From Flavisolibacter longurius (GTDB lineage: Bacteria > Bacteroidota > Bacteroidia > Chitinophagales > Chitinophagaceae), in the NCBI GenBank assembly GCA_014163555.1, contig JACJGO010000015.1:62001-126000 (forward strand): a stretch of 64,000 nucleotides of DNA, read 5' to 3'. Each line of letters begins with the position of its first letter. The stretch's first letter is position 1. The translations under genes and the position numbers were made by a program. The notes beneath the pieces were generated by a model. The model saw nothing but the letters and a program-made list of their open reading frames with translations, made no database searches and was not told the DNA's origin. Shown here piece by piece: positions 19,851 through 52,661 of this stretch.

Positions 19851-19873
19851 CTTTTTTTACGCAAACGTTACCG
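19851..19873. promoter_or_regulatory. pectin-regulon element, aldolase/exuT copy
   Basis: A C and seven Ts followed by ACGCAAACGTTACCG. The whole 23 bases match the copies at 33775 and 52620 except one A/T difference in the core. It lies about 115 bases upstream of the aldolase start in the divergent region with kdgK. Confidence 0.65.
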
Positions 19874-19884
19874 TGAGGGGAAGA

Positions 19885-20049
19885 CAAGTTCACACGTTTA
19901 CAAGTTCATAGGTTATTGTTCACAGTTTGTCGTTTACTGTTCAAGGATTTCGTTGTAATAGGTTGATAGAACAATTTGAAAAATGATGACGTATTCAACA
20001 TTCCTGCAACCAACTTGTGAACGAGTGAACAGGTAAACATGTGAACTGG
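19885..20049. repeat. imperfect inverted repeat between aldolase and kdgK
   Basis: The left arm (19885-19909) and the reverse complement of the right arm (20024-20049) agree at about 21 of 25 bases, around the shared string GTTTAC. The arms are built of short GTTCAC/GTTTAC words also scattered between them. It looks like a degraded intergenic repeat and does not overlap the operator sites. Confidence 0.4.
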
Positions 20050-20052
20050 CCT

Positions 20053-20067
20053 ACGCAATCGTTGCCG
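20053..20067. promoter_or_regulatory. pectin-regulon operator, kdgK copy
   Basis: ACGCAATCGTTGCCG differs by one base from the core at the SusC and GH28 promoters, but lacks the preceding T-tract. It lies about 45-60 bases upstream of the kdgK -7 element. Confidence 0.6.
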
Positions 20068-20111
20068 TACATTTTCTTTGCCCAATCCGTGCATTCGTCC
20101 CTTGCAAAAAC

Positions 20112-20119
20112 TAAATTTG
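20112..20119 (+). promoter_or_regulatory. -7 promoter element of kdgK
   Basis: TAAATTTG matches TAnnTTTG exactly and lies 65 bases upstream of the kdgK ATG. No convincing TTG is present at 19-21 bases upstream, which would fit a promoter needing an activator. Confidence 0.5.
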
Positions 20120-20184
20120 TTCATATTGAAGATTGCCTGCGCAAATTTTCGACACATTACCTCATTAATCAATTCAAAAAAATC

Positions 20185-21210
20185 ATGTCAAAAAAAGTAG
20201 TTACGCTGGGTGAAATCATGCTCCGCTTATCCACTCCCGGCAATGAACGTTTTGTACAAGCCGACAGCTTTGATGTTACCTATGGCGGCGGCGAAGCCAA
20301 TGTAGCGGTTGCATTAAGCAACTATGGTCTTAATGGTACGTTTGTTACCAAAGTTCCCGACAATGCTATTGGACAAGCTGCTATCAATCATATTCGCCGC
20401 TATGGCGTGGACACGCAATACATTGCCCGTGGCGGCAAACGGCTGGGTATCTACTTTTTGGAAACCGGTGCTTCCATGCGGGCTTCGCAGGTGATCTACG
20501 ACCGTGCCGGCGCTTCTATCGCCGACGTGGATGCATCCGAATTTGATTTTGACAAGATCTTTGACGGCGCCGACTGGTTTCACACTACAGGCATTACACC
20601 GGCCCTGAGTGATAAAGCAGCCGCGCTAACAGAAGCCGCACTGAAAGCAGCCAAGGCAAAAGGCATCACCACCTCTATTGACCTGAACTACCGCAAAAAA
20701 TTGTGGAGCAAGGAAAAAGCAAGAGAAGTGATGACCAAGCTTTGTCAATATGTTGATGTTTGTATCGGCAACGAAGAAGATGCGGATACGACCTTAGGCT
20801 TTAAAGCCGGTGAAACCGATGTCACAAAAGGCGAATTGCACCTCGAAGGTTTCAAAGACGTGTTTCAGCAAATGAAAGAAAAGTTTGGATTTAAATACAT
20901 CGCTTCATCACTACGCGAAAGCCATAGCGCTTCCGACAACGGCTGGAGTGCCCTGGTGTATGATGGCACCGAATTTTACCATACCCGTAAATACGATGTG
21001 CGTATTGTAGACCGTGTGGGCAGTGGCGACTCGTTTGCGAGTGGCCTGATCTATGGTCTGGTGACCGGTATGCCCATGAAAGATGCCGCTGAATTTGGTG
21101 TAGCCGCATCAGCCCTGAAGCACACCATCCCCGGTGACCTGAACCACGCTACGCTGTCGGAAGTAAAAGACCTGATGAAAGGCGATGCGTCCGGACGGGT
21201 ACAACGCTAA
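20185..21210 (+). CDS. kdgK: 2-keto-3-deoxygluconate (KDG) kinase
   Basis: A 341-residue PfkB-family sugar kinase that phosphorylates KDG to KDPG with ATP. The N-terminus holds the substrate-binding GEIMLRLSTPGNERF and TYGGGEANVAVALSNYG. The C-terminal PfkB signature is RVGSGDSFASGLIYGL, with the catalytic Asp and anion-hole glycines. ATG 20185 was chosen because it starts directly before the first strand (MSKKVVTLGEIM); an upstream in-frame start would add 48 residues of operator sequence. It is transcribed divergently from the KDPG aldolase gene, so the two consecutive steps share one control region. Confidence 0.93.
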   Translation: MSKKVVTLGEIMLRLSTPGNERFVQADSFDVTYGGGEANVAVALSNYGLNGTFVTKVPDNAIGQAAINHIRRYGVDTQYIARGGKRLGIYFLETGASMRASQVIYDRAGASIADVDASEFDFDKIFDGADWFHTTGITPALSDKAAALTEAALKAAKAKGITTSIDLNYRKKLWSKEKAREVMTKLCQYVDVCIGNEEDADTTLGFKAGETDVTKGELHLEGFKDVFQQMKEKFGFKYIASSLRESHSASDNGWSALVYDGTEFYHTRKYDVRIVDRVGSGDSFASGLIYGLVTGMPMKDAAEFGVAASALKHTIPGDLNHATLSEVKDLMKGDASGRVQR

Positions 21211-22001: not shown

Positions 22002-23489
22002 CTACAACGTTACACCACTCTTAAAAATCGCAATCTCCCGGAAGCCGGCTTTTTCATGTTTTGCTTTTTCACCACTGGCTACACGAATGATTTTATCAAT
22101 CAATTCTTCGAGGCCTTCATCAAACGTTTTATCTTCTGCCAGCGGTCCGGCGTTGTAGTCGATCCAGTGCGGCTTTTTCATGGCCAGCTCCGTATTAGTC
22201 GCAATCTTCAATGTGGGAATAAACGAACCAAACGGTGTACCTCTCCCCGTTGTGAACAACACAATATGGCTGCCGGCAGCACCCAATGCGGTGGTGGATA
22301 CAAGGTCATTACCAGGAGAACTTAAGAGGTTCAGCCCTTTCTCCTTCAGCCGTTCGCCGTATTTCAGTACATCCACCACTGCAGCATTGCCGCCTTTCTG
22401 CGTACAGCCAAGCGATTTATCTTCCAGCGTCGTGATGCCACCTGCCTTGTTACCCGGTGAAGGATTCTCATAGATTGGCTGCTTCAGGTCAATAAAGTAT
22501 TGCTTGAAATCGTTGATCAGGTGAACGGTTTTGTGAAACACTTCTTCCGTAACACAACGATCCATCAGGATGGTTTCGGCGCCAAACATTTCCGGCACTT
22601 CCGTCAGTGTCGTCGTTCCGCCCTGACTGATCAGGAAATCGGAAAAATAACCAACCAACGGATTGGCCGTAATACCTGAAAGGCCGTCGGAGCCACCGCA
22701 TTTCAACCCTACTTTCAATTCAGAAATAGGAACCGGTTCCCGTTTGTCATGCCTCACTACATCGTAAATTTCTTTCAGCAGCATCACAGCTTCTTCCACC
22801 TCGTTCTGCGCCTTTTGACTGGCCAGGAATTTTATTCGGCTGCGATCAAAATCACCCAGCCCTTTTTCAAATTCATCGATCTTGTTGTTCTCGCAACCCA
22901 GTCCTAAAACCAGCACGCCGCCAGCGTTGGGATGAAGGGTAATATCGGAGAGAATACGTCTTGTGTTCTCATGGTCGTCGCCCAATTGCGAACAACCGTA
23001 ATTGTGCTTGAACACTTCAATGCCTTCCACTTCTTCACCGCCATATTCGGCCTTAAATTCACGAATGATCTGTTCGGCAATGCCATTGACACAACCCACG
23101 GTGGGAACGATCCAGATCTCGTTGCGAATGCCCACTTCTCCATTGCTGCGACGATACCCCTGGAAGGTAAGTTCACGCTTCGGATGCGTAAGCGGTGTGA
23201 AAGAAGGTTTGTAAACATAATCAAACACCTCTCCCAACTTGGTCTTTACATTGTGCACATGCACATGTTGTCCTTTTTGAATAGGCTCTGTAGCTTGCCC
23301 AATGGGATAGCCGTATTTTAAAATATCGGCGCCGGGAGCAATATCCTCCAGTGCAATCTTGTGACCTTTTTCAATGTCATCCAGTAAGGTGACACTATTA
23401 CCCTCTACGTTGATGACATCACCTTTACTGAAAGGGCGCAGCGCAATGACAACGTTGTCACGGGCATGTATCTTAATTAACTCTTTCAT
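22002..23489 (-). CDS. uxaA: altronate dehydratase
   Basis: A 495-residue UxaA that dehydrates D-altronate to 2-keto-3-deoxygluconate, the substrate of KdgK. The N-terminal SAF-like domain (HARDNVVIALRPFSKGD) is followed by the large catalytic domain with GYRRSNGEVGIRNE, VPTVGCVNG, HNYGCSQLGDDH, GLGCENN, GLKCGGSDGLSGITANP and GNKAGGITTLEDKSLGC. The conserved Cys and His residues fit the metal-dependent site of the family. It is the last gene of the leftward uxa operon, 33 bases after uxaB. Confidence 0.94.
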   Translation of the reverse strand: MKELIKIHARDNVVIALRPFSKGDVINVEGNSVTLLDDIEKGHKIALEDIAPGADILKYGYPIGQATEPIQKGQHVHVHNVKTKLGEVFDYVYKPSFTPLTHPKRELTFQGYRRSNGEVGIRNEIWIVPTVGCVNGIAEQIIREFKAEYGGEEVEGIEVFKHNYGCSQLGDDHENTRRILSDITLHPNAGGVLVLGLGCENNKIDEFEKGLGDFDRSRIKFLASQKAQNEVEEAVMLLKEIYDVVRHDKREPVPISELKVGLKCGGSDGLSGITANPLVGYFSDFLISQGGTTTLTEVPEMFGAETILMDRCVTEEVFHKTVHLINDFKQYFIDLKQPIYENPSPGNKAGGITTLEDKSLGCTQKGGNAAVVDVLKYGERLKEKGLNLLSSPGNDLVSTTALGAAGSHIVLFTTGRGTPFGSFIPTLKIATNTELAMKKPHWIDYNAGPLAEDKTFDEGLEELIDKIIRVASGEKAKHEKAGFREIAIFKSGVTL

Positions 23490-23522
23490 GATTCAAATGT
23501 TGTTTAAAGAGTAACCGGAAGT

Positions 23523-24992
23523 TTACAGGCTTGCCTGTGCCGGTGTCAGTAGTTGTTGCAGGGCATTTTGAATCCCCTCTTTTTCAATGTTGATCAAATG
23601 GTTGGTAACGGCTTCAGTCAAACCCTCCACGCTGTTCAAATCCATTTTCCAGACCTTTTGGTAGCCCAAAACGGCTGTGACCACGTTCCGGATTCCGGCC
23701 TCACTCCCATCTGACGTTTGCCAGGCGCTTGCCAGCAAGGCAAGGGCTGCTGGATCATCATTCAAGGCAATGGCCTCTTCTCCACGTTTGCCTTTGTAAA
23801 AAGCAATGGTAGCAGCCAGTGAAAAGGAAAGCCGCTGCGGAATAGAACCTTTTCGTTTTTTATACTCAAGGATGGAAGGCAACACTCTTGTTTCAAACTT
23901 GGACCAGGAGTTCAGCGCAATGCTCATTAACTGGTGTTTGATATAAGGATTGCGGAAACGGTCAATCACTTCATTGGCAAAACTTTCCAATTCTTCCGTG
24001 GGCAGGTCAAGGGTGGGAATGATCTCTTCCAGGATGGCATCCCGCAGAAATGTACCCACCACCGGGTGCTCTACCGATTCCCGCACCGTGTTCAGTCCGT
24101 AGAGATAGGCCACCGGTACCAGGGTGGTGTGTGCACCATTCAGAATACGCACTTTACGTGTGCGGTACGGCGTTATATCATCCACATACAATACATCCAA
24201 CCCGATGGAAGGAAACGGTAATTCGGTTTGCAGGGATTCCGGCGCTTCCATCACCCAGAGATGAAAAGGCTCCCCTTCCACCACCTGCTTGTCTTCGTAG
24301 CCCAGTTCTGCTGTGATCTCGGCCATGCGTTCGCCCGGGTATCCCGGCACAATACGGTCAACCAGTGTATTGCTGAAGGTGCAGGCATTTTGCAACCAGG
24401 CCACAAACCCTTCTTCATAGCCCCATTTTTCGGCCAGGGTGAGAAGGATCCGTTTCAGGTTATCAGCATTCTTTTCAATCAGTTCGCAGGGAATAATGTG
24501 TACACCTTTGGATGCATCGCCATTGAAAGTTTTATACCGGTGATAAAGCCATACTGCCAGTTTTCCCGGAAACGAGGCTGGTGGTGTATCCGAAGGGCTG
24601 TCGCTCTCATTGTAGGCAATTCCTGCTTCCGTTGTGTTGGAAACCACATAACGCATATTCGGATTTTCAGCCGTTTGCAAATAGGCCGCAAAATCTTCAT
24701 ACGGGTTAATGCCACGGCTGATCACATCCACCGTTTCATGGGTGCTTTCAGCCTTGCCACCTTTCAGACCACGCAGGTAAAGGGTATATAAACCATCCTG
24801 CTCGTTGAGCAGGTTTACCATACCCCGCTCAATGGGTTGCACAGCCACAACGGAACCGTTGAACCCTGCTTTTTTGTTCAGCTCATGAAACATCCAGTCA
24901 ACAAAACAACGAAGGAAGTTGCCTTCGCCAAACTGTAATACTTTTTCAGGATAGGTGCGGTACCCCGACCAGGTCTTTTTACTTAATTGCAT
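23523..24992 (-). CDS. uxaB: tagaturonate reductase (UxaB, first copy)
   Basis: A 489-residue mannitol-dehydrogenase-family enzyme that reduces D-tagaturonate to D-altronate with NADH. The N-terminal dinucleotide-binding part begins YPEKVLQFGEGNFLRCFVDWM. Further markers are VVSNTTEAGI, SFPGKLAVWLYHRYKTF, CTFSNTLVDRIVPGYP and the catalytic-domain KVRILNGAHTTLVPVAYLYG, with the Lys/Asn/His residues of the polyol dehydrogenase active site. It sits directly before uxaA. A diverged paralogue is encoded at 26620-28125. Confidence 0.9.
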   Translation of the reverse strand: MQLSKKTWSGYRTYPEKVLQFGEGNFLRCFVDWMFHELNKKAGFNGSVVAVQPIERGMVNLLNEQDGLYTLYLRGLKGGKAESTHETVDVISRGINPYEDFAAYLQTAENPNMRYVVSNTTEAGIAYNESDSPSDTPPASFPGKLAVWLYHRYKTFNGDASKGVHIIPCELIEKNADNLKRILLTLAEKWGYEEGFVAWLQNACTFSNTLVDRIVPGYPGERMAEITAELGYEDKQVVEGEPFHLWVMEAPESLQTELPFPSIGLDVLYVDDITPYRTRKVRILNGAHTTLVPVAYLYGLNTVRESVEHPVVGTFLRDAILEEIIPTLDLPTEELESFANEVIDRFRNPYIKHQLMSIALNSWSKFETRVLPSILEYKKRKGSIPQRLSFSLAATIAFYKGKRGEEAIALNDDPAALALLASAWQTSDGSEAGIRNVVTAVLGYQKVWKMDLNSVEGLTEAVTNHLINIEKEGIQNALQQLLTPAQASL

Positions 24993-25124
24993 ACATTTTA
25001 TTTTATCGCAGCGCTTTCGGAATTAACGTTTTTATCATTACAGGAAAACAATTTGTGCCTTATAGAAAATTTTCTCTAACTACCTCCAGCACACAAATTC
25101 CAATTACCGAATCATCCTGTTGTC

Positions 25125-26561
25125 TTAAACACTTTCCACCGTTGCTGGTTTTGGTTCTTCTTTCCAGTTGAAATAATTACTGGCATTGTGGTAACAGATA
25201 TCCTGGATGATCTTACCCGTCCACTCCAGGTCTGCCGGCAATTCGCCGTTCTCAATTTCTTCTCCAAAAAGGTTGCACAAAATGCGACGGAAATATTCGT
25301 GGCGCGGATAGGAAAGAAAACTGCGGCTGTCGGTTAGCATACCTACAAATCGGCTCACCAATCCCATATTGGAAAGTGCATTCAGTTGTTTGATCATGCC
25401 GTCTTTCTGATCGAGAAACCACCAGCCCGATCCCCACTGCACCTTTCCGGCCACCGAACCGTCGTTGAAGTTGCCGATCATGGTTGCCATCAATTCATTG
25501 TCGGCCGGATTCAGGTTATACAGAATGGTCTTTGCCAGTTGGTCGCGGCCATCCAGCCTGTCAAGGAAACGGGAAATGGCTCTGCCCTGAGCAAAATCGC
25601 CAATGCTGTCCCAACCGGTATCAGCACCAAGTTGGCGCAGGCGGCGACTGTTGTTGTTGCGCAATGCACCAAGGTGGTATTGCTGCACCCAGCCTTTTTC
25701 CCAATCCCACACGGCAAAAATTTCCAGCATGGCCGATTTGAACTTCTGTGCTTCTTCCATATTCAGTTCACGGCCCGAACGTATTTTATTGAATGCCGCT
25801 TTGATTTCGGCTTCGGTATAATCTTCCGCATAAATCTGCTCCAGGCCATGATCGGAAACCGAGCAGCCCATGGTCGCAAAAAAATCATGGCGGGACTTTA
25901 AACAATCGAGGTAGTGCTCAAAGGTCAGAATGTTGCAATTGCTGACGCTTTCCAGTTTGCCAACATAGTCGTTGAAAGCGGCAGCACTGTCCACGTTCAT
26001 TGCCTTATCCGGGCGGTAAGCTGGTAGAATTTTAACTTCAAAACCATCGTCGGCAATCTTCTGATGATGCTCCAGCGTATCAATGGGATCATCGGTGGTG
26101 CACACCACTTTTACATTCATCTTGCGCAGCAGGTTGCGAACTGAATAATCCGGTGTTTGCAACAAGGCCGTGCATTCGTCGTAGATCTTTTTAGCCGACT
26201 GCCCGTTCAATATATCGTGAATACCAAAATAGCGCTGCAGTTCCAGGTGCGTCCAGTGGTACAAAGGGTTGCGGAGTGTATACGGTACCGTTTCCGCCCA
26301 TTTCTGAAATTTTTCAAAATCAGGCTTTGAACCGGTGCAGTAGCTTTCGTCCACGCCGTTGGTACGCATAGCCCGCCATTTATAATGATCACCATACAAC
26401 CAAATCTGGGTCAAGTTGTCAAACTGCTTATCCGCTGCAATCTGGTCGGGCGGCAGATGGCAATGGTAGTCGATGATGGGCATTTGTTTGGCATATCCAT
26501 GATACAACTCCTGAGCTGTTTTGGATTGCAGGATAAAATTTTCGTCTAAGAATTTTTTCAT
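25125..26561 (-). CDS. uxaC: glucuronate/galacturonate isomerase
   Basis: A 478-residue amidohydrolase-superfamily TIM-barrel enzyme that isomerises D-galacturonate to tagaturonate and D-glucuronate to fructuronate. Motifs are PIIDYHCHLPPDQIAADK (metal-binding HxH), LYGDHYKWRAMRTNGV, VVCTTDDPIDTLEHH and, near the end, MLTDSRSFLSYPRHEYFRRILCNLFG. The length is typical of UxaC. It lies between the two UxaB-like genes in the uxa operon and catalyses the first cytoplasmic step of galacturonate use. Confidence 0.94.
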   Translation of the reverse strand: MKKFLDENFILQSKTAQELYHGYAKQMPIIDYHCHLPPDQIAADKQFDNLTQIWLYGDHYKWRAMRTNGVDESYCTGSKPDFEKFQKWAETVPYTLRNPLYHWTHLELQRYFGIHDILNGQSAKKIYDECTALLQTPDYSVRNLLRKMNVKVVCTTDDPIDTLEHHQKIADDGFEVKILPAYRPDKAMNVDSAAAFNDYVGKLESVSNCNILTFEHYLDCLKSRHDFFATMGCSVSDHGLEQIYAEDYTEAEIKAAFNKIRSGRELNMEEAQKFKSAMLEIFAVWDWEKGWVQQYHLGALRNNNSRRLRQLGADTGWDSIGDFAQGRAISRFLDRLDGRDQLAKTILYNLNPADNELMATMIGNFNDGSVAGKVQWGSGWWFLDQKDGMIKQLNALSNMGLVSRFVGMLTDSRSFLSYPRHEYFRRILCNLFGEEIENGELPADLEWTGKIIQDICYHNASNYFNWKEEPKPATVESV

Positions 26562-26619
26562 TACCGGTTGTATTTTTCGGGTCGCTCTAAGTTCCTCTTT
26601 TATTTCTTCTTTTTTCCAA

Positions 26620-28125
26620 TCAAACCCTAACCTGGTTTAAAAGGGCTGCCTTTACATCGCCTTCCAGCAACAGGTTCAGCTTTTCCAGCACAGCTTCCGC
26701 AAATCCCGGCAATTCGGACAGATCAGTACCCCATAAGGTTTCATCCCGAAGCACATCCTGCACCAGGGCCGCGGTGCTTAGTCCGCTCCAGCGGCGGTAA
26801 AAAGCCGGTGCCTCATCATCCTGCAACAGGTAAGCGTAGCCGTTATAGTCACCGTAATATCGGCCTTCCCGTCTGCTTACCGGCCGGGTAAAACGCAGGT
26901 AAGCGGCAAAACCCAGCGCCATTAATTCCGGCATGGTTCCAAATTGTTCGTAATGACGCAGCAACACCGGCACACAACGGGTTTGCATTTTTGAGCTGTA
27001 GTTCAGCGTAATGCTTAGCCAATGGTGATTGAGATAAGGATTCTGAAAACGGGTTAATACCGATTGGGTGTATGCATGTGCCGCCTGGAGACCAACCGGG
27101 TAGGGAATCGATGGCGATATCTCGTCCAGCATCAGGTCTTTCATGTATCCGGAAAGCAAGGCATCGTCCATACTTTGCTTAACGGTTTCGCAGCCGGCCA
27201 GGTAGGCCAGTCCGCAGGTAAAGGTGTGAACACCATTGAGCAACCGCAGTTTAAGTTCGCGGTAGCGTTGAATATCTGGCTCCACCACCACACCTTCACC
27301 TGCTTCCGCAAAACACAGCACCTCTTTTACGGCTTCATCGCCTTCAATGGCCCACAAACGATGGGGTTCCGCCACTATCAGTAACTGGTCACTATAACCA
27401 AACGACGCTTCCAGTCCCTGCTGTGTACCGGCATCTGGTTTTCCCGGCACAATCCGGTCCACCAAGGAATTACAAAACGTATTGCAGCGTTCGAGCCACT
27501 CAATAAAGGCATCATCCAAACCATTGAGGTGCGCCAGTTCAAACACAATCGCTTCCAGCTTTTTGCCATTGTCCGGTATCATTTCCGTAGGAACGATCAC
27601 CATCCCGCTTTGCTCACTGCCACCAAATGCCTTGTAGCGTTCGTACAAAAACGAAAGCAACTTCCCGGGAAAAGAGCGTGGTGGGTGTAATCTGATATCA
27701 TCGTTCTCCAGCCGTATGCCCACTTCTGTAGTGTTGGAAAGAATGATCTTCATTTCCGGGTTGTGGGCACATTCCAGCACCTGCTGCCATTGGTGCGAAG
27801 CCGTAAGTACCCGGCTGATGGAGGCGTTGATGCTGGCTTCTTCAACTACCTTTTCCTCCTCCAAGCCGCGAACACAAAGCGTATATAAACAGTCTTGTTT
27901 ATCAAATGCAGATACATCGCCTTGTGAGGTTGATTTTACCACCACCACACGGCCGTTAAAAATGCCCTGACGGTTTGCCTTGTCGATAAAATAATCCGGC
28001 AGTCCACGCAGCAGCACACCGGTGCCAAACTGCAGCACTTTTTCCGGCAGGCGAAACACAGCAGCATCCGGCACTTCCACCTGTGCACTGTTGACGTTAA
28101 AAACCGTGTATTGTGATAAAATCAT
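26620..28125 (-). CDS. second UxaB-like reductase, diverged
   Basis: A 501-residue mannitol-dehydrogenase-family protein. The start was set at ATG 28123-28125 (MILSQYT); an upstream in-frame codon would overlap the preceding gene. It shares the UxaB layout (PEKVLQFGTGVLLRGLPDYFID, LSNTTEVGIRLE, SFPGKLLSFLYERYKAFGG, CNTFCNSLVDRIVPGKP, LRLLNGVHTFTCGLAYLAG) but clearly differs in sequence from the copy at 23523. It may be a second tagaturonate reductase or act on fructuronate from the UxaC glucuronate reaction. It lies 23 bases after the PL10-CE8 gene, so catabolic and secreted genes are in one operon. Confidence 0.82.
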   Translation of the reverse strand: MILSQYTVFNVNSAQVEVPDAAVFRLPEKVLQFGTGVLLRGLPDYFIDKANRQGIFNGRVVVVKSTSQGDVSAFDKQDCLYTLCVRGLEEEKVVEEASINASISRVLTASHQWQQVLECAHNPEMKIILSNTTEVGIRLENDDIRLHPPRSFPGKLLSFLYERYKAFGGSEQSGMVIVPTEMIPDNGKKLEAIVFELAHLNGLDDAFIEWLERCNTFCNSLVDRIVPGKPDAGTQQGLEASFGYSDQLLIVAEPHRLWAIEGDEAVKEVLCFAEAGEGVVVEPDIQRYRELKLRLLNGVHTFTCGLAYLAGCETVKQSMDDALLSGYMKDLMLDEISPSIPYPVGLQAAHAYTQSVLTRFQNPYLNHHWLSITLNYSSKMQTRCVPVLLRHYEQFGTMPELMALGFAAYLRFTRPVSRREGRYYGDYNGYAYLLQDDEAPAFYRRWSGLSTAALVQDVLRDETLWGTDLSELPGFAEAVLEKLNLLLEGDVKAALLNQVRV

Positions 28126-28148
28126 AAATCTTTTTAGACCTATTGTTC

Positions 28149-33731: not shown

Positions 33732-33763
33732 CAAGTCTAAACAGTTATTCAGAGGTAGCAAGC
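33732..33763 (-). promoter_or_regulatory. promoter of the GH28/uxa operon
   Basis: On the minus strand a GCTTGC -33 box (TTG at 33759-33761) is followed by exactly 19 bases and TAGACTTG (33732-33739), 7 of 8 matches to TAnnTTTG. The same pair with the same spacing occurs at the SusC promoter. Confidence 0.7.
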
Positions 33764-33774: not shown

Positions 33775-33813
33775 CTTTTTTTACGCAATCGTTACCGAAA
33801 ACGTTGCCGTAAA
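33775..33813. promoter_or_regulatory. pectin-regulon operator, GH28/uxa copy
   Basis: A C, seven Ts and ACGCAATCGTTACCG (33783-33797), then a second CG-centred site AAAACGTTGCC. The two CG centres (33790 and 33802) are 12 bp apart. The block lies about 20-50 bases upstream of the -33 box of the leftward promoter, a position typical for activator binding. Confidence 0.7.
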
Positions 33814-38600: not shown

Positions 38601-38613
38601 AACGCCTTTCCAA

Positions 38614-40296: not shown

Positions 40297-40306
40297 TATC
40301 CAAAAC

Positions 40307-41059: not shown

Positions 41060-41106
41060 GCAAACTACTTTAGGTGCGGCTATAATAATAAGAAGCAAGC
41101 AAAAGC

Positions 41107-41130
41107 GGAGAAGGTTGCACCTTCTCCTTT
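41107..41130. terminator. hairpin after the oxidoreductase gene
   Basis: GGAGAAGG-TTGCA-CCTTCTCC, an 8-bp stem, lies between the oxidoreductase stop (41159) and the CE12 start (41059). Its T-run is better on the plus strand. It may attenuate leftward transcription within the operon. Confidence 0.5.
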
Positions 41131-41158
41131 TTACATTTCTCGTCTGACGTTTCACGCC

Positions 41159-42565: not shown

Positions 42566-42582
42566 ATAGAGCGTTTTATATT

Positions 42583-44016: not shown

Positions 44017-45488
44017 TATTGATTTTGTGCCGCTGTAATATTTTTCACTAAACTGTTGATGTAAACCTCAATGTTATCGTAACCAGTACTTAAGTTGCGA
44101 CTGGCTGCATTGGCTTTGGACGGATCCAGTTTCTGAGCTTTTTCCCAAGCATCCGGCATGCCATCACCATCCGCATCCGGCAGTGCGGGAGCAGACTGCA
44201 ATTCGGGCCATCCACCCACGTCCTTTTGACTGTCAATGATACCCAACAGGCTTCCGCCCGAACCATTTGCGGTGTAGGTTCCGTTTTTCACAGAGAGCAA
44301 AATGCGTGCATCGGCTGCATCCCGCTTGAACGAAGCACCTGCGTATTCAAGAACTTTGGTGTAGGCTTCTTGCGCTGTATGGGTTGTAACATTATCGCCA
44401 ACCGGATGCGCCGCCGTCAACCGCATGGCTGCTTTATCCGCATCGGAAACGGTTCCGTAGCTGCTGTGAAACTGATTGTACACGCCATAGGTCCAGTTAT
44501 CAGCCGTGGCTCTTGTACTGCCTTCCACGACATTGCCGTCAATAAAAAACTTGCCCCAGATGTTGTACACTTCCGTACCAATGTTCTTGTTTTTATCGGG
44601 GGAAAAAATGCGTTCTTTTTTTGTGGTAGCCGGCCCGGGTTTGTAATAGTTATTAACGATGTTAATGTTCATGGCTTCGCCACCGTAAGCACTATTACTG
44701 GCCCAATTGTAAAGAACATTGTTGCGGTAGTCAACCAGGTCCGTCAACGCAAACGCCTTCCCGGCCTCTTCGCCAAAACGTGGATTGCGGCTGTCGTGAT
44801 GGGCCAGCAGATTGTGGTGAAAAGAAGCTTTCCTGCCGCCAAAAATACCACCGTAGCCGTGTGCCCCTTTGCTGTGGACCGAGTTGCGCAGGCTTTCGGC
44901 AATCATGCTCCATTGCAGGGTAAAGTTTTCGTTGGCATAGAACGACGTGCATTCATCCACACTCCAGCTCATCGAGCAATGATCAATGATGATGTTCCTG
45001 TGAAAACGTCCGCCAAGTGCGTCGGACTCCTGGCCGCTTTCATCACCCAGTCGAAAGCGCAAATAACGGATGATCACATTATCGGCATCAATACCCAGGG
45101 CATAATTCTTCAGGCAAATCCCATAACCGGGCGCCGTTTGTCCCGCTATGGTAATGTTGCCATTGCGAATGGACAATCCACTCCTGAGGGCAATGGTTCC
45201 CGCTACATCAAAAATGATGACGCGGGCACCAGAAGCATTGATGGCTTCCCGAAGGCTGCCAGGCCCTGCATCATTCAGGTTCGTTACTTTGATCACACGA
45301 CCACCCCTACCTCCCGTTGCTTCGCGGCCAAAGCCTTCAGCACCGGGAAATGCAAACGCTGTTTCAGTAACAGGCACAGGTCCTTCCGATACCGGTTCTA
45401 CATTGCCACCGCCCGTTTCTTTTTTCTGGCAGGAAGAATGGAGAAAGCCCAAACTGAAAAGAATACCGAAAATCAAATTTGTATGCAT
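44016..45488 (-). CDS. pectate lyase PL1, lipoprotein (first of two)
   Basis: A 490-residue paralogue of the next PL1 gene's product, with a lipobox (FLHSSC). It shows FAFPGAEGFGREATGGRGG, VTNLNDAGPGSLREAI, ITIAGQTAPGYGICL, VIIRYLRFRLGDESGQESDALGG, HCSMSWSVDECTSF and HHNLLAHHDSRNPRFG. It ends with a DADGDGMPDAWEKAQ calcium-loop-like motif. The two copies share layout and motifs but differ through most of their length, so they may prefer different pectin lengths or methylation. It follows the surface lipoprotein gene by about 70 bases. Confidence 0.9.
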   Translation of the reverse strand: MHTNLIFGILFSLGFLHSSCQKKETGGGNVEPVSEGPVPVTETAFAFPGAEGFGREATGGRGGRVIKVTNLNDAGPGSLREAINASGARVIIFDVAGTIALRSGLSIRNGNITIAGQTAPGYGICLKNYALGIDADNVIIRYLRFRLGDESGQESDALGGRFHRNIIIDHCSMSWSVDECTSFYANENFTLQWSMIAESLRNSVHSKGAHGYGGIFGGRKASFHHNLLAHHDSRNPRFGEEAGKAFALTDLVDYRNNVLYNWASNSAYGGEAMNINIVNNYYKPGPATTKKERIFSPDKNKNIGTEVYNIWGKFFIDGNVVEGSTRATADNWTYGVYNQFHSSYGTVSDADKAAMRLTAAHPVGDNVTTHTAQEAYTKVLEYAGASFKRDAADARILLSVKNGTYTANGSGGSLLGIIDSQKDVGGWPELQSAPALPDADGDGMPDAWEKAQKLDPSKANAASRNLSTGYDNIEVYINSLVKNITAAQNQ

Positions 45489-45560
45489 TGGCTTCAGCTA
45501 AAAATGTACGGACAAGGGAAAGGTGTGAACTCCTGTTCACACCCCTGTATGCGTTCAGAT

Positions 45561-47135
45561 TTATAACCTCCACCGCGGATCACCAGCGCTGCTGCGTCCA
45601 GGGAACAGGTTGTCAATGATCATGAAATTTCCGTTTGCCGGCGCCTGCCACAATTCCGTTGACTTCCGGCTGTAGTTGATGACGTTGGGAAAATCACTTC
45701 CAGCCGATTCATAGTCACTGGTACGGTAATTATTACTGGCATTGATCGTAGTGGAAGCACTGGCTCTGAAATCACGTATAGCGATGCTGCCTGTTCCCGG
45801 ATTGGGTTTACCCATGCCGAAAATGTTGTTGTTGACCGTTATACCATTGGGCACATTACGGGAGCCGGCATCAATGATGTAGTTACTGCCACCACCCAAT
45901 GGTGTTTCGTTGAACGTGCAATTTTCAATAAGGATCGCACCTCCCATATCATTTTTGCTGCTGGTAATTATCTTCTCCACTTTGTAAAAGGTGGAATTGC
46001 GCAAGGTGATGTTGTTCGCTTTACACGTGGCGTTGTCAACGATAATCACACCGTAATTGGAGATACTGTCAATCGTTGAGTTTTCAATCAGGAAATTCGA
46101 AACGGTTGTTGTTCCTGACTGCAAACGAACCAGCCCGCGGAAAATCTCAGCATGACAGTTTACAAATTTCATTGTACCTACGGTAGCACTTCGCGTGGTG
46201 TTGAATACATACCGCGAAGAATAGCTACTGCCATAGAGGTAAACATCGTTGAACTCAATTTGATCGATCACGCTGCCTTCTGCAAAATTGAAATTGCTGG
46301 TGAAATAGAGTTTTGCCTGCTCACTCGCCATAAGGTCGGAGCCGCTGGTAATGGTGATATTTTTACCAATATCAATTGCTGAAGAAATTTCATAGACTTC
46401 GCCCCTCTTTAACAGGACCGTGCTGCCTGCCGGAATAATCGGAATTGTATCGGCCAGCACTGAAGGCCGGCCCTCGATATCCCGAAGGTCGATAATGGTA
46501 CCGCTGTATGGTGCTTTGGTGGTAAAATCGGCCCAGCCCCTTAGGGTCGTACCGCTGTAAAGGAAAATGGTATGCGGCGTTGCGGAAGCCAGTCCGCTGA
46601 TAATCCGGTACTGATTGCTGACATCAGTTGCTGAAAGCGTTACCTCTCTCACAACAGAACTGTCAGCCGTTTTAATGATCCGAATGCGGGAAACCGCAGC
46701 TCCGCTTTTTGCCCAGGTCACTTTTACGGCAGCATCGGTTATGTCACTTACGCCGGGCACATTCAGAATGGTAGGGAAACGCGGCGTTTTGATGGAACCC
46801 AACAGCGAATACCGTGAGCTGTAAACCGTATCTTCCGCATTGGCCCTAACCTGCACCTGGTAGGTTTTTTCCCAGCCCAGGTTTTCAAAACGCACATAAT
46901 TGGTATCGACATTTACTGTAGCCAGTACGGTTTTGAATGTATCCATACTCAGTTGGGCTGTGTACGAACGGGCACTCCCAATCTGTTGCCATTTTGCTTC
47001 AACCCAGTTGCCTTCAGCAACCAATTGTTCTTTCAACACAGGACGAAACAAACGGGTAGGTTCCAATTCCTCTGTCTTTCGGCAGGCGGCGAGGAAAAGC
47101 GTCATGACAGTTATGGCAAGCAATATATTTCTCAT
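45561..47135 (-). CDS. surface lipoprotein with Fn3-like and DUF5123 domains
   Basis: A 524-residue predicted outer-membrane lipoprotein (lipobox FLAAC, ATG 47133-47135; a start four codons earlier is less likely). Residues about 30-200 form two fibronectin-III-like beta domains (VEAKWQQIGSARSYTAQL, VKVTWAKSGAAVSRIRI). Residues about 215-520 form a parallel beta-helix of DUF4957/DUF5123 type ending in AGDPRW. It occupies the SusE/SusF place just after SusD, so it is a likely pectin-binding surface protein; no catalytic motif is seen. The binding role is inferred from position. Confidence 0.82.
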   Translation of the reverse strand: MRNILLAITVMTLFLAACRKTEELEPTRLFRPVLKEQLVAEGNWVEAKWQQIGSARSYTAQLSMDTFKTVLATVNVDTNYVRFENLGWEKTYQVQVRANAEDTVYSSRYSLLGSIKTPRFPTILNVPGVSDITDAAVKVTWAKSGAAVSRIRIIKTADSSVVREVTLSATDVSNQYRIISGLASATPHTIFLYSGTTLRGWADFTTKAPYSGTIIDLRDIEGRPSVLADTIPIIPAGSTVLLKRGEVYEISSAIDIGKNITITSGSDLMASEQAKLYFTSNFNFAEGSVIDQIEFNDVYLYGSSYSSRYVFNTTRSATVGTMKFVNCHAEIFRGLVRLQSGTTTVSNFLIENSTIDSISNYGVIIVDNATCKANNITLRNSTFYKVEKIITSSKNDMGGAILIENCTFNETPLGGGSNYIIDAGSRNVPNGITVNNNIFGMGKPNPGTGSIAIRDFRASASTTINASNNYRTSDYESAGSDFPNVINYSRKSTELWQAPANGNFMIIDNLFPGRSSAGDPRWRL

Positions 47136-47165
47136 AATAAGATGCATTTTTTGTTCTCTTAAATC

Positions 47166-48971
47166 TTAATATCCATATTGGTTCTGAAGCGTGCCTTTGC
47201 TGTTGGTTACCACCGAAGAATGCAAGGGCAGAATGTAACGTAGCGGTGTGGCACCAGTGTTGTCCGTATACCCTCTCCATTGGCGGGTGATATAATCGGC
47301 CGGTGCATTGTTGGTTGTATTCCACAGGGCACGCAACCAGTTCACACGGGTATTGTATTCCTCCGGAATGGTGCCGGTGGCCTTGTAGTACCGGTTAAGG
47401 AATGAAATAGACTTGTCGGCGTTGCGCTTGTAGTACTGATAATCTGCCAGGTTTGCGTACGTACCCGTACCGGCAACGGCATCCTCGCCCATTTTTATCA
47501 GGGTGTTCCGCGCTTCGGCCACTTTTTTACCAAACAGGTTCCAACGCTCCAGGTCATACTTGCGCAAAAATTCCCCGCCAAATTCCCAGGCACGTTCGTT
47601 TACAATGGCATCAAAAAATGAGTTTTTGGAACCGGAAACCGAACCCACATATGCATTCACCTTTTCAGCCCATAACGATTGCGGGAAGGCACGCTGGCGA
47701 ACCTGTCGCAACGCATCCTGGGCCGTAGCTGTCGGACCATTCAATTCATTCTCGCTTTCTGCCAGCATCAACAACACATCTGAATAGCGCATCATGGGCC
47801 AGTTGATACCGGTTCCTTTTGCGGATGCTGGCCCTAAGGGTGCAGGCACCAGCATGCGGTTCCATTTATTGATGGTAATGCTTGTGGGTCCAGTCGGCAT
47901 CTGCGCCAGCGTATCGTTATAGGAAATGATAGAAGCGGTTGCGGGTAACCGCAAGTCCGTTGTGTCAAACGAATGGTAATAATTCGGTGTCAGATACATC
48001 TGGATGGTGGTAGCACCGTAGGAATGATAGCCGGTGCTGTTGGTAACTGTCACACCCACCGACCAGGCCACATCGCCATAACCCGGATGGAAAGCTACTT
48101 CCCATAACACATCGCTGTTGACCGGCTTAATGTATTTGTTTTCATTCATGAAAACCGAAGCAAAATCCGGCAAAGGCCTTGGCTTCAGATCGATTAATTT
48201 CTTTGCATACGTATTGGCGATCTGGTAGTAGTCACGATAATCGTCTTTGCGACGCATCTGCATATCGGGATAAAGCCAATAGCCTCCGCGCATAAGAGCC
48301 AATCGGGAGATAAAACCCATGACATACTCACGGTTGATACGTTCGATACCAAAATCCAACTGATCGGCCCAGAACATATCACCTTCCACGCTGATCAGGT
48401 CATTGATCAGGAAGGTAAGGATGCTGTCACGACCAGTACGGGGCTGGTAAAAATCATCACCCGCACGGGAAGGAGTAGCTTTGAACGGCACATCACCCCA
48501 ATGGTTCATCAGCATGTAGTACCAATAGGCACGGAGGGCTTTTACTTCACCGAGCAATTGCTTGTATTGACGGTTGCCGGGATCATTGGCCAATGCAATT
48601 TTTGTCAGTCCTTCTTCACACTCATTGGCGCGGTTGATGGCGTTGTAGGCGTTGTTCCAAACCGTCAGCAGGTCAGGGTTGGAAGCCGTGGCTTCAAACG
48701 ACCAGATGTCGCGGCGTGAGTTATCGGGAGAAGCGCCAACAGGACCTACTTCTACATCGGTATTGCCGGCAAAGTTGTTGGACAAACGAGAGGTAAAGGC
48801 ATCCTGGTTGAACAGGGCATAGACACTGTTTACTGCTTTTTTAGCATCGGTCTCGCTGCTGAAAATATAATCCTGCGAAAAGTTGGAAGGCGAATCGGCC
48901 GTCAGAAACTTTTTACACGAAACCATTAGCAGGGTGGAAAAAGCTAAAACGGAGTATAGAATGCGTTTCAT
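47166..48971 (-). CDS. susD: SusD/RagB family pectin-binding lipoprotein
   Basis: A 601-residue outer-membrane lipoprotein with lipobox LLMVSC. It has the SusD fold: TPR-like helices near the N-terminus (ANECEEGLTKIALANDPGNRQYKQLLGEVKALRAYWYYMLMNHWGDVPF) and a C-terminal EWNLFGK-like RKYDLERWNLFGK segment. It binds glycan at the cell surface and caps the SusC channel encoded 32 bases upstream. The surrounding enzymes point to a pectic oligosaccharide as ligand. Confidence 0.93.
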   Translation of the reverse strand: MKRILYSVLAFSTLLMVSCKKFLTADSPSNFSQDYIFSSETDAKKAVNSVYALFNQDAFTSRLSNNFAGNTDVEVGPVGASPDNSRRDIWSFEATASNPDLLTVWNNAYNAINRANECEEGLTKIALANDPGNRQYKQLLGEVKALRAYWYYMLMNHWGDVPFKATPSRAGDDFYQPRTGRDSILTFLINDLISVEGDMFWADQLDFGIERINREYVMGFISRLALMRGGYWLYPDMQMRRKDDYRDYYQIANTYAKKLIDLKPRPLPDFASVFMNENKYIKPVNSDVLWEVAFHPGYGDVAWSVGVTVTNSTGYHSYGATTIQMYLTPNYYHSFDTTDLRLPATASIISYNDTLAQMPTGPTSITINKWNRMLVPAPLGPASAKGTGINWPMMRYSDVLLMLAESENELNGPTATAQDALRQVRQRAFPQSLWAEKVNAYVGSVSGSKNSFFDAIVNERAWEFGGEFLRKYDLERWNLFGKKVAEARNTLIKMGEDAVAGTGTYANLADYQYYKRNADKSISFLNRYYKATGTIPEEYNTRVNWLRALWNTTNNAPADYITRQWRGYTDNTGATPLRYILPLHSSVVTNSKGTLQNQYGY

Positions 48972-49003
48972 TATACGAAGTGTTAAGCGTTTAAAGAATG
49001 GGA

Positions 49004-52000
49004 TTAAAACGTCACATTAATTCCCGCTGTATATGTGCGGCTTTTCGGATAAGCAGAATAATCGACACCCGGTGTTAACTGGCTGTAGCTGCTGCTCCGT
49101 GTTGTGCTTACTTCCGGATCGTAGCCACTGTATTTCGTCCACAGGAAAGCATTGTACGCGGTCACGTATACACGCAGTTTGCTGATGGACGCTTTGGAGG
49201 TTAGCTTAAATGGAAGCGTGTAACCCAATGAAATGTTATTTAACCGGAGGAAAGATCCATCTTCCACCGCCCAGGAATGAAATACCGGTGAGGCCGTGCC
49301 CATAGAAAATGGCGACCAGATGGTGGCGTTGGGATTCAGCTTGCGCAGGTCTTCCAGTTCTGTTACCAGGTTGCCCTGCATATCAATATAATGGAAACGA
49401 TTTTCATAATTGGAGGTGTTTAGCATATTGCCATATGTGCTTCTGTAAAGCATGTTGTGGGCAATTTTTCCGGTATTGTAAACGTCGTTACCATACACCC
49501 AGTTAAAGAAGGCCGAAAAGTCAAACCCTTTGTAGGCACTGTTTATTCCGAAACCACCAGTCGCTTTGGGCAGTGCACTACCGATGATCTGCCGATCAGC
49601 TGCTGTAATCACTCCATCACCCTGGTCAGGAACACCGTCACCGTCTGTATCAACGGTTGGCAAATCTTTCAGCTTTAACACACCCGGCCGTACACTGATG
49701 CCTCCCAATAGTGAACCTACATTGGCAACGCCGGGCTTTAACGTATAGCGGCCGTTTGTTGCATTATAGGATTCAAAATCATCCACGGTGTACATGCCAT
49801 CAGTTACATAGCCATACATCAAACCAATAGTGCGACCAACAATCAGGCGATAATCATCAATGGTCTTCAGATCGGTGCCGGCCCAGTTCGAGTTAAATGA
49901 TTGTTCGTTCACGCCGTCCAGTGCATCGATGCGGGCCCGGTTGATACCAACGTTGAAGTTAGCGGAAAGCTGGAAGTCCTTGCCGCTGATGATGTTTCCG
50001 GTCAAAGCTAATTCTATACCGCGGTTAGAGGTCTGCCCGATGTTACGCTGCTGCGTGGTGAAACCTGTTGTTTGCGGAATCACAGATTGTACCAGCAGGT
50101 CTTTTGTTGTGTTCTTGTAAAAATCAAGGGTACCACTCAGCCTGTTTTTAAACAACGTGAAGTCCAAACCAATGTTACGGGTGATGGTCGTCTCCCAACG
50201 AATGTCCGGATTGGGTAACTGGTTGCCGGCAAAGGTGTAGTAAGGTTGTGCTACATCGCCAAAGCCGATAGGGCGGTTATCTGTTGGAGAAAACAATACC
50301 CGCCACTGATCGTTTCCAATATTATTGTTACCGGCTGTTCCATAGCTCAGGCGCAGCTTAAGGTCATTTACGAAGGTTGCGTTCTCCATAAAGTCTTCTC
50401 CGGAAACACGCCACGCAAAAGAGGCGGCAGGGAAAAGCCCCCATTGTTTGCCGGGAGCAAACTTGGTAGAACCATCGTAACGGGCCGTCAGGTTAAAAAT
50501 GTATTTGTTGTCCAGTTGGTAAATGGCCCGGCCAAAGAAAGAAGCGATTTTATTGCCTGCAAATTCATTGGTTGTGTGACGGTCCTGTGTCCCGAGTGTC
50601 ATGGTGGCAAACAGCTTTTCCGGAGTGATGTTTTCGGCAAAGTATTTCGCACGATTGTACTCTTCAAAGCCTTGTCCCAGGGCCAATATCTCCTGCCCAA
50701 CCAGGAAGTTGAAATCGTGCTTGGCACCGCTGCGCAGTCTGTAGTTCAGTGTGTTGGTCCAGCGATAGCCAGTGCTGTTGAATTGGGAAATTTCTCCCAT
50801 AGGAAGGTTGCCTCCCTCATTGCGGGAAGTGCTGGTCAACGGACCAAAATAGCGGCGGTTGTTGCCCCATCCAAGGTCATATCCAAATTCAGAGCGATAG
50901 GTCAGCTCTTTCAGAATATTCCAGGAAGCAGCAATGTTCATGTTCAGCACACGGTTGGTACGCTTGCGGTAATCCTGAGCCGCCAGTTGGATGGGGTTGA
51001 TCAGGTTACGCAAAAACTGGTCGTAATCGTCGCCACTACCCGGGTCCACAATGATCATATCAGCGATGCCGTTCACCGGCCGGGTGGTAATGCCATCCCC
51101 CACACGCAGGCTGGATCCGCCGGAAGTTCCTGCTCCATCGATGATGGTATGTGTATAGCGGGAAGCAAAATCAAAACGCAGTGCTTTTGAAACTTCATGG
51201 TTTAATTTAAAGTTCAGGTAATTGCGCTGGTAGCCCGAACCCGGCACCAGGCCCTGGTCGTTGTTGTTAGTGAAGGTCAGCGCCATTCTTGTTTTCTCCG
51301 TGCCGCCGGTTACGCTGAAATTATGCTGCTGCGAATAAACAGGATTGCCGAAGAGACGTTTTTGCCAATCGGTTCCTTTTTGATTTTTATACAGTTCCAG
51401 GTCATCATATACACCAAAATAACGGGAGAAGTTATCGACATCCGTTTGGCTCCGTAACCGTGCATATTCGTACTGGGCCAGCACAAATTCGTAAGGAGAT
51501 AGCACTTCAAGTTTACGCGGCAGGTTTCGCTGCTGCACAAACCCGTTGTAGTTGATGGTGGTCTTTCCGCCTCGGGCACTTTTGGTCGTGATGATAACGA
51601 CGCCGTTGGCACCGGCAGCACCGTAAATGGCCGATGTAGCTGCATCTTTCAGGATATCGATGCTGGCAATATCCGAAGGAGCAATGTCATTGATGCTGTT
51701 CACACGGAAACCATCCACGATATACAGTGGAGAGTTATCGCCGGTCAACGAACCGCCACCCCGCACTCGGATTACGATCTCCGCACCGGGAGCACCATCA
51801 ACGGTGGTTACCTGTACACCTGGCAGGCGTCCGGTGATCGCTTCTGCTGCATTGGCCACTGGTATCTTTTCCAAGTCTCTTGCGCCTATAGAAGAAATGG
51901 TACCTGTAAGGTCTTTTCTTCGCGTGGTACCATACCCGATCACCACAATATCATTTAGTGCAGAAACCTCCTCGGCCAATGTTACATCCACCGTTGAGCG

Positions 52001-52264
52001 GGTGCCCACGGAAACTTCCTGCCGGGTGTAGCCAATGGAGGAATACACCAGCACCACGTTGCTTCTGTCAGGGATGCTAATGGTGTAACGGCCTTCCGTA
52101 TTGGTGGATGTACTGGTTTGTGTGCCTTTAATGGTAACAGAAACGCCTCCCAGTCCGTTTGTGGCACTATCGGACACAACACGGCCGGTAACCGTACGTG
52201 TTTGCGCCCAAACCAAAACGGAGCAAAAGCAGGCAAGTAGCGTTAGAATCAACTTTCTTTCCAT
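49004..52264 (-). CDS. susC: SusC/RagA TonB-linked outer-membrane transporter
   Basis: A 1087-residue TonB-dependent transporter with a signal peptide (ILTLLACFCSVLVWAQ). ATG 52262-52264 (MERK) was chosen over a TTG two codons upstream. A carboxypeptidase-D-like domain (VTGRVVSDSATNGLGGVSVTIKG) precedes the plug with VIGYGTTRRKDLTGTISSI, VRVRGGGSLTGDNSPLYIVDG and IEILKD-like IDILKDAATSAIYGAAGANGVVIITTK. The C-terminus ends in an aromatic strand (YTAGINVTF). It should import pectic oligomers together with SusD. It is first in a leftward operon of about eleven genes. Confidence 0.94.
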   Translation of the reverse strand: MERKLILTLLACFCSVLVWAQTRTVTGRVVSDSATNGLGGVSVTIKGTQTSTSTNTEGRYTISIPDRSNVVLVYSSIGYTRQEVSVGTRSTVDVTLAEEVSALNDIVVIGYGTTRRKDLTGTISSIGARDLEKIPVANAAEAITGRLPGVQVTTVDGAPGAEIVIRVRGGGSLTGDNSPLYIVDGFRVNSINDIAPSDIASIDILKDAATSAIYGAAGANGVVIITTKSARGGKTTINYNGFVQQRNLPRKLEVLSPYEFVLAQYEYARLRSQTDVDNFSRYFGVYDDLELYKNQKGTDWQKRLFGNPVYSQQHNFSVTGGTEKTRMALTFTNNNDQGLVPGSGYQRNYLNFKLNHEVSKALRFDFASRYTHTIIDGAGTSGGSSLRVGDGITTRPVNGIADMIIVDPGSGDDYDQFLRNLINPIQLAAQDYRKRTNRVLNMNIAASWNILKELTYRSEFGYDLGWGNNRRYFGPLTSTSRNEGGNLPMGEISQFNSTGYRWTNTLNYRLRSGAKHDFNFLVGQEILALGQGFEEYNRAKYFAENITPEKLFATMTLGTQDRHTTNEFAGNKIASFFGRAIYQLDNKYIFNLTARYDGSTKFAPGKQWGLFPAASFAWRVSGEDFMENATFVNDLKLRLSYGTAGNNNIGNDQWRVLFSPTDNRPIGFGDVAQPYYTFAGNQLPNPDIRWETTITRNIGLDFTLFKNRLSGTLDFYKNTTKDLLVQSVIPQTTGFTTQQRNIGQTSNRGIELALTGNIISGKDFQLSANFNVGINRARIDALDGVNEQSFNSNWAGTDLKTIDDYRLIVGRTIGLMYGYVTDGMYTVDDFESYNATNGRYTLKPGVANVGSLLGGISVRPGVLKLKDLPTVDTDGDGVPDQGDGVITAADRQIIGSALPKATGGFGINSAYKGFDFSAFFNWVYGNDVYNTGKIAHNMLYRSTYGNMLNTSNYENRFHYIDMQGNLVTELEDLRKLNPNATIWSPFSMGTASPVFHSWAVEDGSFLRLNNISLGYTLPFKLTSKASISKLRVYVTAYNAFLWTKYSGYDPEVSTTRSSSYSQLTPGVDYSAYPKSRTYTAGINVTF

Positions 52265-52576
52265 AAACAAGCTTGAAATGAATTAATGTTTAGTCGTCGT
52301 TTTTATTAAGATCAGTAAATCCTCTTTTCAAGAACACATTTTTGATGCGCACTTTATCTTACTCTATTTTTTATCCTACATACTCCAGCCCGTAACAATG
52401 GTGGTAAAACAGGATTGGTGGTGACGTCATGAACTACAAAGACACCCGCCATTCTAACCGGAATAAAAAGGAAAAAAAAGTCTTTATTCATGACAGTAAT
52501 CAGCTTCGCAATCATTGAACGGTAATTGAAGAAAGCCGCATAGCAATCAATCTATTTTAATAAGGGCTTTCGTAAA

Positions 52577-52606
52577 CAAGTCTAAACAGATATTCAGAGC
52601 CGGCAA
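52577..52606 (-). promoter_or_regulatory. promoter of the SusC pectin operon
   Basis: On the minus strand a GCTTGC -33 box (TTG at 52604-52606) is followed by 19 bases and TAGACTTG (52577-52584). Boxes, spacing and most of the spacer (CTCTGAATA, CTGTT) match the promoter at 33732-33763. Confidence 0.75.
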
Positions 52607-52619
52607 GCGTATTGAAACT

Positions 52620-52661
52620 CTTTTTTTACGCAATCGTTACCGATAACGTTTGCAATTGCGG
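52620..52661. promoter_or_regulatory. pectin-regulon operator, SusC/LacI copy
   Basis: A C, seven Ts and ACGCAATCGTTACCG (52628-52642), then ATAACGTTTGCAA. The CG centres (52635 and 52647) are 12 bp apart, as at the GH28 promoter. It lies upstream of the susC -33 box and also 70-110 bases upstream of the lacI start, so it could control both directions. Confidence 0.75.

Follow-up and report, generated by a model that had tools for sequence, protein, structure and literature searches.

A fixed-spacing operator/promoter element at pectin and uronate genes of Flavisolibacter longurius and a candidate LacI-family activator

The pectin and hexuronate cluster and its operator sites

The 64,000-nucleotide stretch of the Flavisolibacter longurius genome considered here (the window) holds a pectin and hexuronate cluster comprising a major facilitator superfamily (MFS) transporter, eda, kdgK, uxaA, two uxaB-like genes, uxaC, a pectate lyase–pectinesterase, a glycoside hydrolase (GH) 28–GH88 protein, a pirin, GH43, esterases, two PelZ-like lyases, SusD, SusC and a LacI-family regulator, although several of these family matches fall under the curated NCBIfam cut-offs. 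Our subject is an 81-bp operator/promoter element, found at 33.7 and 52.6 kb in the cluster, conserved across Chitinophagaceae and present in some Sphingobacteriaceae, and the adjacent LacI-family protein that we propose as its reader (52729–53754, forward strand; LacI 52729). The element consists of two mirror CG-centered LacI-type sites whose centers are 12 bp apart, a tract of seven A/T bases on the promoter side only, a spacer, TTG, N19 and the -7 box TAGACTTG.

Upstream of susC, the promoter-proximal site 1, ACGCAATCGTTACCG, lies at 52628–52642 on the forward strand, centered between 52635 and 52636, and is seen in relatives. Its distal mirror, site 2, reads CGATAACGTTTGCA on the forward strand, is assigned to the reverse strand (52641–52654) and has its center 12 bp from that of site 1. 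Toward the gene, all on the reverse strand, follow the A/T tract (52621–52627; AAAAAAA on the susC strand), a candidate UP-like element, then the -33 TTG (52604–52606) and the -7 box (52577–52584), which is 51 bp from the site 1 center. From the gene order, the open reading frames of 34946–52270 (reverse strand) are predicted to form one operon with the family assignments susC-susD-DUF5123-pelZ-pelZ-Gfo/Idh-paeY-like-esterase-pectin methylesterase (PME)-paeX-like-GH43.

The GH28–GH88 promoter is built in the same way. Site 1 ACGCAATCGTTACCG (33783–33797, forward strand; found by core match and by profile) and site 2 CGAAAACGTTGCCG (33796–33809, forward strand) again have centers 12 bp apart, and the promoter-side A/T tract (33776–33782), the -33 TTG (33759–33761) and the -7 box (33732–33739) lie on the reverse strand, the box 51 bp from the site 1 center. 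Its predicted operon (22002–33649, reverse strand), for which co-transcription is likewise suggested, runs GH28–GH88, pectate lyase–pectinesterase, uxaB-like, uxaC, uxaB and uxaA.

Two further promoters carry one operator each. Ahead of eda, which encodes a 2-keto-3-deoxy-6-phosphogluconate (KDPG) aldolase-like protein and lies with the MFS transporter gene at 17589–19745 (reverse strand; the eda start at 19745 was picked by eye), the operator ACGCAAACGTTACCG occupies 19859–19873 (forward strand) and is joined by an A/T tract at 19852–19858. The candidate -7 box TATCTTCA (19798–19805, reverse strand) is 61 bp from the operator center, that is 51 + 10, and 10 bp is about one helical turn. Ahead of kdgK (20185–21210, forward strand), encoding a 2-keto-3-deoxygluconate (KDG) kinase-like sugar kinase, the operator ACGCAATCGTTGCCG (20053–20067) and the -7 box TAAATTTG (20112–20119), both on the forward strand, are separated by 51 bp from operator center to box. 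The eda box at 61 bp recurs in G014 (L227) and G005 (L077), and the kdgK box at 51 bp in G014. A search for kdgK in other relatives found it directly behind uxaC in G003, G006, G016 and G037, and no further divergent eda–kdgK region was used. Runs of GTTCAC/GTTTAC-like words fill 19890–20045, between eda and kdgK, and are present in G014 (L227) too.

These findings bear out the sites reported in the first-pass annotation. Its 23-bp string is CTTTTTTTACGCAAACGTTACCG at 19851–19873 and CTTTTTTTACGCAATCGTTACCG at 33775–33797 and 52620–52642; the variant core at the kdgK operator, the second CG-centered site and the TTG-N19-TAGACTTG promoter at 33.7 and 52.6 kb, the adjacent LacI gene and the CG-centered, LacI-type form of the core were all found as claimed. 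The proposal that four promoters form one regulon is supported, sites occurring at all four, but the complete element is present at two only, eda and kdgK having single sites and not pairs. A genome-wide check for copies located the exact core ACGCAAWCGTTNCCG five times in 5.66 Mb, four of them in the window, with none for the reversed control; the fifth (C43:298355) is intergenic and has no TANNNTTG box at 51 bp. With up to three mismatches, 17 core matches fall in the window against 3.0 expected, a number reached in 0 of 100 shuffles.

Each site is a CG-centered quasi-palindrome with the left half ACGCAAACG, which we take to be the half-site of the PurR box. The pair could also be drawn as a single 28-bp composite operator centered on CGTTACCGATAACG. 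We disfavor this drawing because relatives with a single site use the shared register CGCAAWC|GWT, so two overlapping sites fit better than one composite. Near-perfect 28-bp mirror operators ATGCAAWCGTTNCCGGNAACGNTTGCAT occur ~6–7 kb upstream of lacI in L129 (~3804–3831), L130 (~3340–3367) and L132 (~4150–4177), with no TANNNTTG box at 51 bp; these are perhaps targets of the same or another LacI protein. A PurR-like site pattern matched the F. longurius genome with one mismatch at C6:139852 and C7:116638, both within open reading frames, and showed no excess at two mismatches (69 versus 72 for the control in all).

Spacing and gene content of the element among relatives

The distance between operator and -7 box is nearly constant across species. 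We counted it over 190 operator matches in loci fetched without use of the box, with mirror sites counted apart and the F. longurius genome included. Strict TA(G/C)ACTTG boxes within 160 bp to the left of an operator lie at exactly 51 bp in 49 of 50 cases, and in 39 of the 40 that remain when the set is thinned at 75% identity; for the looser box TANNNTTG on the same side, 82 of 138 are at 51 bp and 16 at 52. To the right, 12 of 15 strict boxes lie at 63 bp and 2 of 15 at 51, and we read 63 as 51 + 12, the same kind of promoter viewed from the mirror site. When any spacing up to 80 was allowed in 30 loci around the best LacI orthologues, CAAGTNTA boxes with an operator were found in 12, all 12 at one distance. 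Among 80 named lacI loci, an operator lies within 1 kb upstream in 50, with the box at 51 bp in 34, at 52 in 9, at 50 and 49 in one each, and no box in 5. The same 50 loci serve as a control: the operator center is 76–710 bp from the start of the lacI match, yet the box stands at 49–52 in 45 of them. A fixed-spacing scan at up to two mismatches (59 of 118 genomes) gave too much noise to be used as evidence, since the reversed control also matched in many genomes.

The anatomy of the element was examined in 67 promoters left after thinning at 70% spacer identity. All had been picked for the operator core with a TANNNTTG box 51 bp away, which makes the near core and the letters TA..TTG conserved by selection. 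Three other regions of conservation are evident: (i) the far site keeps all five key positions in 48 of 67 promoters, against 0 of 804 control windows; (ii) at least six of the seven tract bases are A/T in all 67, as compared with 14 of 67 for the matching distal flank and (iii) the inner letters of the -7 box, which lay outside the selection criteria, are conserved. The fifth base of the box is C in 47 promoters, A in 19 and T in a single one, T being the base of the Bacteroidota sigma-A -7 consensus TAnnTTTG as given in excerpts of PMC9723704. The -33 TTG at N19 is weak, occurring in 18 of 67 promoters against 1.2 expected. If the box is placed at -12 to -5, as in Flavobacterium psychrophilum (same excerpts of PMC9723704), the operator centers fall at about -63.5 (near site) and -75.5 (far site), with the A/T tract spanning -55 to -49.

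A further motif, AATATCTG, is conserved at +41 to +48 from the operator center in the 67 promoters, just upstream of the -7 box, and is possibly an extended promoter element. It is present (at least 6 of 8 letters) in 33 of 61 operator-linked TA(G/C)ACTTG boxes and in none of 61 others, an unfair control because those others may be mostly chance matches. An upstream promoter of the form TTG-N19-TACGCTTG, which would put the operator over its -33 box and so point to repression, has matches at both complete promoters. We dropped it as not conserved because L039, the relative with the most similar LacI, does not have it.

The constant spacing could have been inherited, if promoter cassettes were copied within or between genomes too recently for it to change. 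Spacers are indeed alike within one genome, as at 33.7 and 52.6 kb here and at four promoters of G008. In the 67 thinned promoters, however, spacer sequences agree only at random level, with a mean identity of 0.29 across 2211 pairs. The element also stands ahead of unrelated genes, and we regard such inheritance as extremely unlikely.

The genes behind the element are largely those of the window. R1, a profile made by aligning 72 promoters, all from other genomes, has only two full-length matches in the F. longurius genome (E 2e-18 and 2e-17), both of them the pectin promoters of this cluster; the eda site (4e-4) and the intergenic C43 site (1e-3) follow, and then weaker ones. Outside this genome we collected 103 distinct elements, of which ten came from loci picked with the box and many from loci fetched because of lacI. 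Homologues of window pectin and uronate genes lie behind 91 of them (SusC 51, GH28 25, PaeY-like 6, PelZ-like 3, PME 2, and PelPME, esterase, UxaC and UxaB2 one each), and 55 of the 103 diverge from a LacI homologue. Among the 12 without a window homologue, eight had a testable frame: three short-chain dehydrogenases, an alpha-galacturonidase (above its NCBIfam cut-off), two other glycoside hydrolase domains and two sigma-70-family proteins resembling extracytoplasmic function (ECF) factors. Two of the three dehydrogenases were tested against NCBIfam, with KduD as best match below the cut-off. The remaining four elements have no frame of 120 aa and lie at most 434 bp from the locus end. The sigma factor genes (L144:4119-4712 and L242:2817-3419) suggest a cascade.

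Across the 118 genomes, genome-wide core matches outside this genome, selected without regard to lacI, number 83. A window homologue lies beside 58 of them, and of the 44 with a box at 49–52, 41 are beside such a gene.

LacI 52729 and the proposed mechanism

LacI 52729 contains the helix-turn-helix and periplasmic-binding-like domains of the LacI/GalR family (PF00356, 5e-14; PF13377, 1e-23). Its best solved chains by profile are those of CcpA, with PurR lower in the ranking, and it scores well below the NCBIfam ccpA equivalog cut-off (TIGR01481, 160.7 bits versus 442.35). Orthologues at E ≤1e-80 occur in 38 of 118 genomes, that of F. longurius included, and the protein of G014, from the same genus, is 90% identical.

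LacI and the element occur together. The 118 relatives divide into 33 with both, 5 with LacI only, 3 with the element only and 77 with neither; within the 55 genomes that bear UxaC the corresponding numbers are 33, 4, 3 and 15 (p 2e-7), and across 294 genomes of the family they are 122, 15, 14 and 143 (Fisher 2e-48), p values that overstate the association because the genomes are related and some may be species whose named loci fed the model. Outside the first sample (G118 and above), the element was found in 97 of 107 LacI-bearing family genomes, and in 11 without LacI.

Could another protein, a LacI paralogue or an unrelated regulator, read the site with LacI 52729 a bystander? The F. longurius genome holds matches to seven further LacI-family genes, and in 14 genomes of the family the element occurs with no LacI match at 1e-80. 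Around the seven paralogues, however, loci of 4 kb contain no CG-centered site of the general form tested with a TANNNTTG box at 49–54 bp. Three of these 14 genomes were searched again: in G064 a LacI fragment of 90 residues with 84% identity lies at the end of a contig, G028, a draft 72% complete, has no LacI match at 1e-20, and G046 has only relatives at no more than 38% identity. A reader other than LacI 52729 thus appears very unlikely. PurR-like sites with two mismatches (G000:C58:8384 and 9556) flank one LacI paralogue (C58:8529-9536). Next to lacI, 53863–57054 encodes a propeller and Y_Y_Y protein of two-component type, another possible regulator of the cluster, whose UhpB-like match at the C-terminus is below the cut-off.

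We consider it likely that LacI 52729 regulates the pectin and uronate regulon, mainly as an activator acting from about -63. A LacI dimer would sit on the near site (~-63.5), with a second dimer possible on the mirror site (~-75.5), and would contact RNA polymerase, probably by way of the alpha C-terminal domains of the polymerase, seated on the A/T tract (about -55 to -49). Polymerase would thereby be recruited to a sub-optimal promoter made of TAGACTTG and a weak -33 box. The four promoters could in this way control about 20 genes (susC to GH43, GH28 to uxaA, eda with the transporter, and kdgK) in response to an effector that is presumably an intermediate of the uronate pathway. Where lacI diverges nearby, the same sites may adjust lacI as well.

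Class I-type activators bind upstream at a fixed helical phase and raise transcription by contact with RNA polymerase, and the near site does keep a fixed phase upstream of the -33/-35 box. We favor activation because the 51-bp upstream distance is fixed, the eda box is shifted by one turn, the -7 box avoids the consensus T and the -33 box is weak. The suggestion of the first-pass annotation that an operator upstream of the -33 box has an activating role thus gains support from the fixed spacing and the weak -33 box.

The same position also suits a repressor that, at -63, keeps RNA polymerase in place by contact with the alpha C-terminal domain until a uronate releases LacI, as GalR does from the upstream gal operator. 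Most LacI-family proteins repress, and repression by contact also demands a fixed spacing. Within the genus, moreover, site 2 is close upstream of the lacI promoter. Its candidate -7 box TATTTTTA (52681–52688, forward strand) is 33 bp from the site 2 center, a distance shared by 6 of 9 loci with the same form of site 2 (41 in L047, 42 in L048, no box in L067). On the other hand, no operator covers the -7/-33 region at the two complete promoters, and a systematically sub-optimal -7 box with a weak -33 box would be odd for promoters merely kept off. We judge repression by LacI 52729 unlikely.

Several observations nonetheless weigh against LacI 52729 as activator of this regulon, beginning with the repressing habit of its family. 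The -33 TTG is weak but present, and lev shows CcpA repressing from upstream (excerpts of PMC3463425). For 30 of the 80 named loci, the kilobase upstream of lacI lacks the operator pattern, although a few of these 30 have a contig end nearby; among the 18 of these 30 that were viewed, six from Pedobacter have a CCCA variant outside the pattern and several have no site by eye. In G061 (L232) the eda box at 61 is absent and kdgK has no TANNNTTG box, while in G005 the kdgK box is at 54. The 51 SusC matches need not all be pectin receptors, since SusC is a large family and identity is 37–68%. Of the 83 genome-wide core matches, 25 are beside no window homologue and 39 have no box at 49–52; some may be chance matches, as is suggested by the eight that the reversed control gave in the same 118 genomes. 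Finally, co-occurrence is no proof of binding because LacI and the element both belong to pectin clusters.

In Pedobacter, changes in LacI and in the operator coincide only in part, L188 retaining CCCG although its protein is changed, and we therefore make no claim of covariation.

A LacI relative that activates from a fixed site would add to LacI-family cases, like CcpA, in which site position decides between activation and repression. The proposed architecture is also concrete and testable for Bacteroidota promoters, whose polymerase recognizes TAnnTTTG, and the element suggests an inducible promoter for Chitinophagaceae. The R1 profile can flag pectin regulons in soil Chitinophagaceae, uncultured members included.

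Two other features of the window may be recorded. At 11357–13292, three successive TetR_N open frames, the first two overlapping, adjoin a resistance–nodulation–division (RND) efflux operon, and at 58843–60918 a peptidase C26 domain and an aldehyde dehydrogenase are fused in one protein.

Comparison with known LacI-family regulators

The kind of regulator proposed here is already known, because Bacteroides has predicted LacI-family uronate regulators: KdgR (BT0487), UxaR (BT0824), UxuR (BT1434) and UxmR (BT3613), as described in excerpts of PMC3878776 and PMC4052901. They share with LacI 52729 the phylum, the protein family, uronate catabolism targets and prediction by comparative genomics, and, as for KdgR, UxaR and UxuR, operators stand ahead of uronate catabolism genes both in the window and among the 103 elements. 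The likeness, drawn from family and target genes, has limits. In the same excerpts, the Bacteroides monosaccharide regulons, that of KdgR included, comprise mainly cytoplasmic enzymes and few periplasmic or extracellular ones, and rhamnogalacturonan and pectin loci are assigned to hybrid two-component systems, whereas the operators described here precede genes for SusC/D and secreted pectinases. The portions of these papers drawn on here describe no fixed promoter geometry, and the word 'activator' is absent from the main text of PMC3878776. In literature titles and abstract openings, a scope that leaves subscription journals mostly outside, no description of a rigid double-operator unit with SusC/D and secreted pectinases turned up.

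We lean, with somewhat less assurance than for the regulon itself, toward a wider reading: that SusC/D pectin loci across Chitinophagaceae have a LacI-family protein as their dedicated activator, acting through an 81-bp unit with mirror operators 12 bp apart, a tract for the alpha C-terminal domain and essentially one distance to the -7 box. It would take the place of the hybrid two-component and SusR systems that are known to serve loci of this type.

With the Escherichia coli PurR operator the sites share the half-site ACGCAAACG and the CG center, and differ in function, geometry and gene set. CcpA of Bacillus subtilis, likewise a LacI-family protein, is a precedent for activation by upstream binding. 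According to excerpts of PMC3463425, a cre box upstream of -35 generally activates, in a manner dependent on helix face, the lev operon being an exception; upstream activation is thus less unusual for the family than the first-pass annotation had claimed. CcpA differs in exerting global catabolite control and in the placement of its sites, with three activating cre at -103, +30 and +88 (same excerpts), whereas the element described here keeps one distance in scores of promoters.

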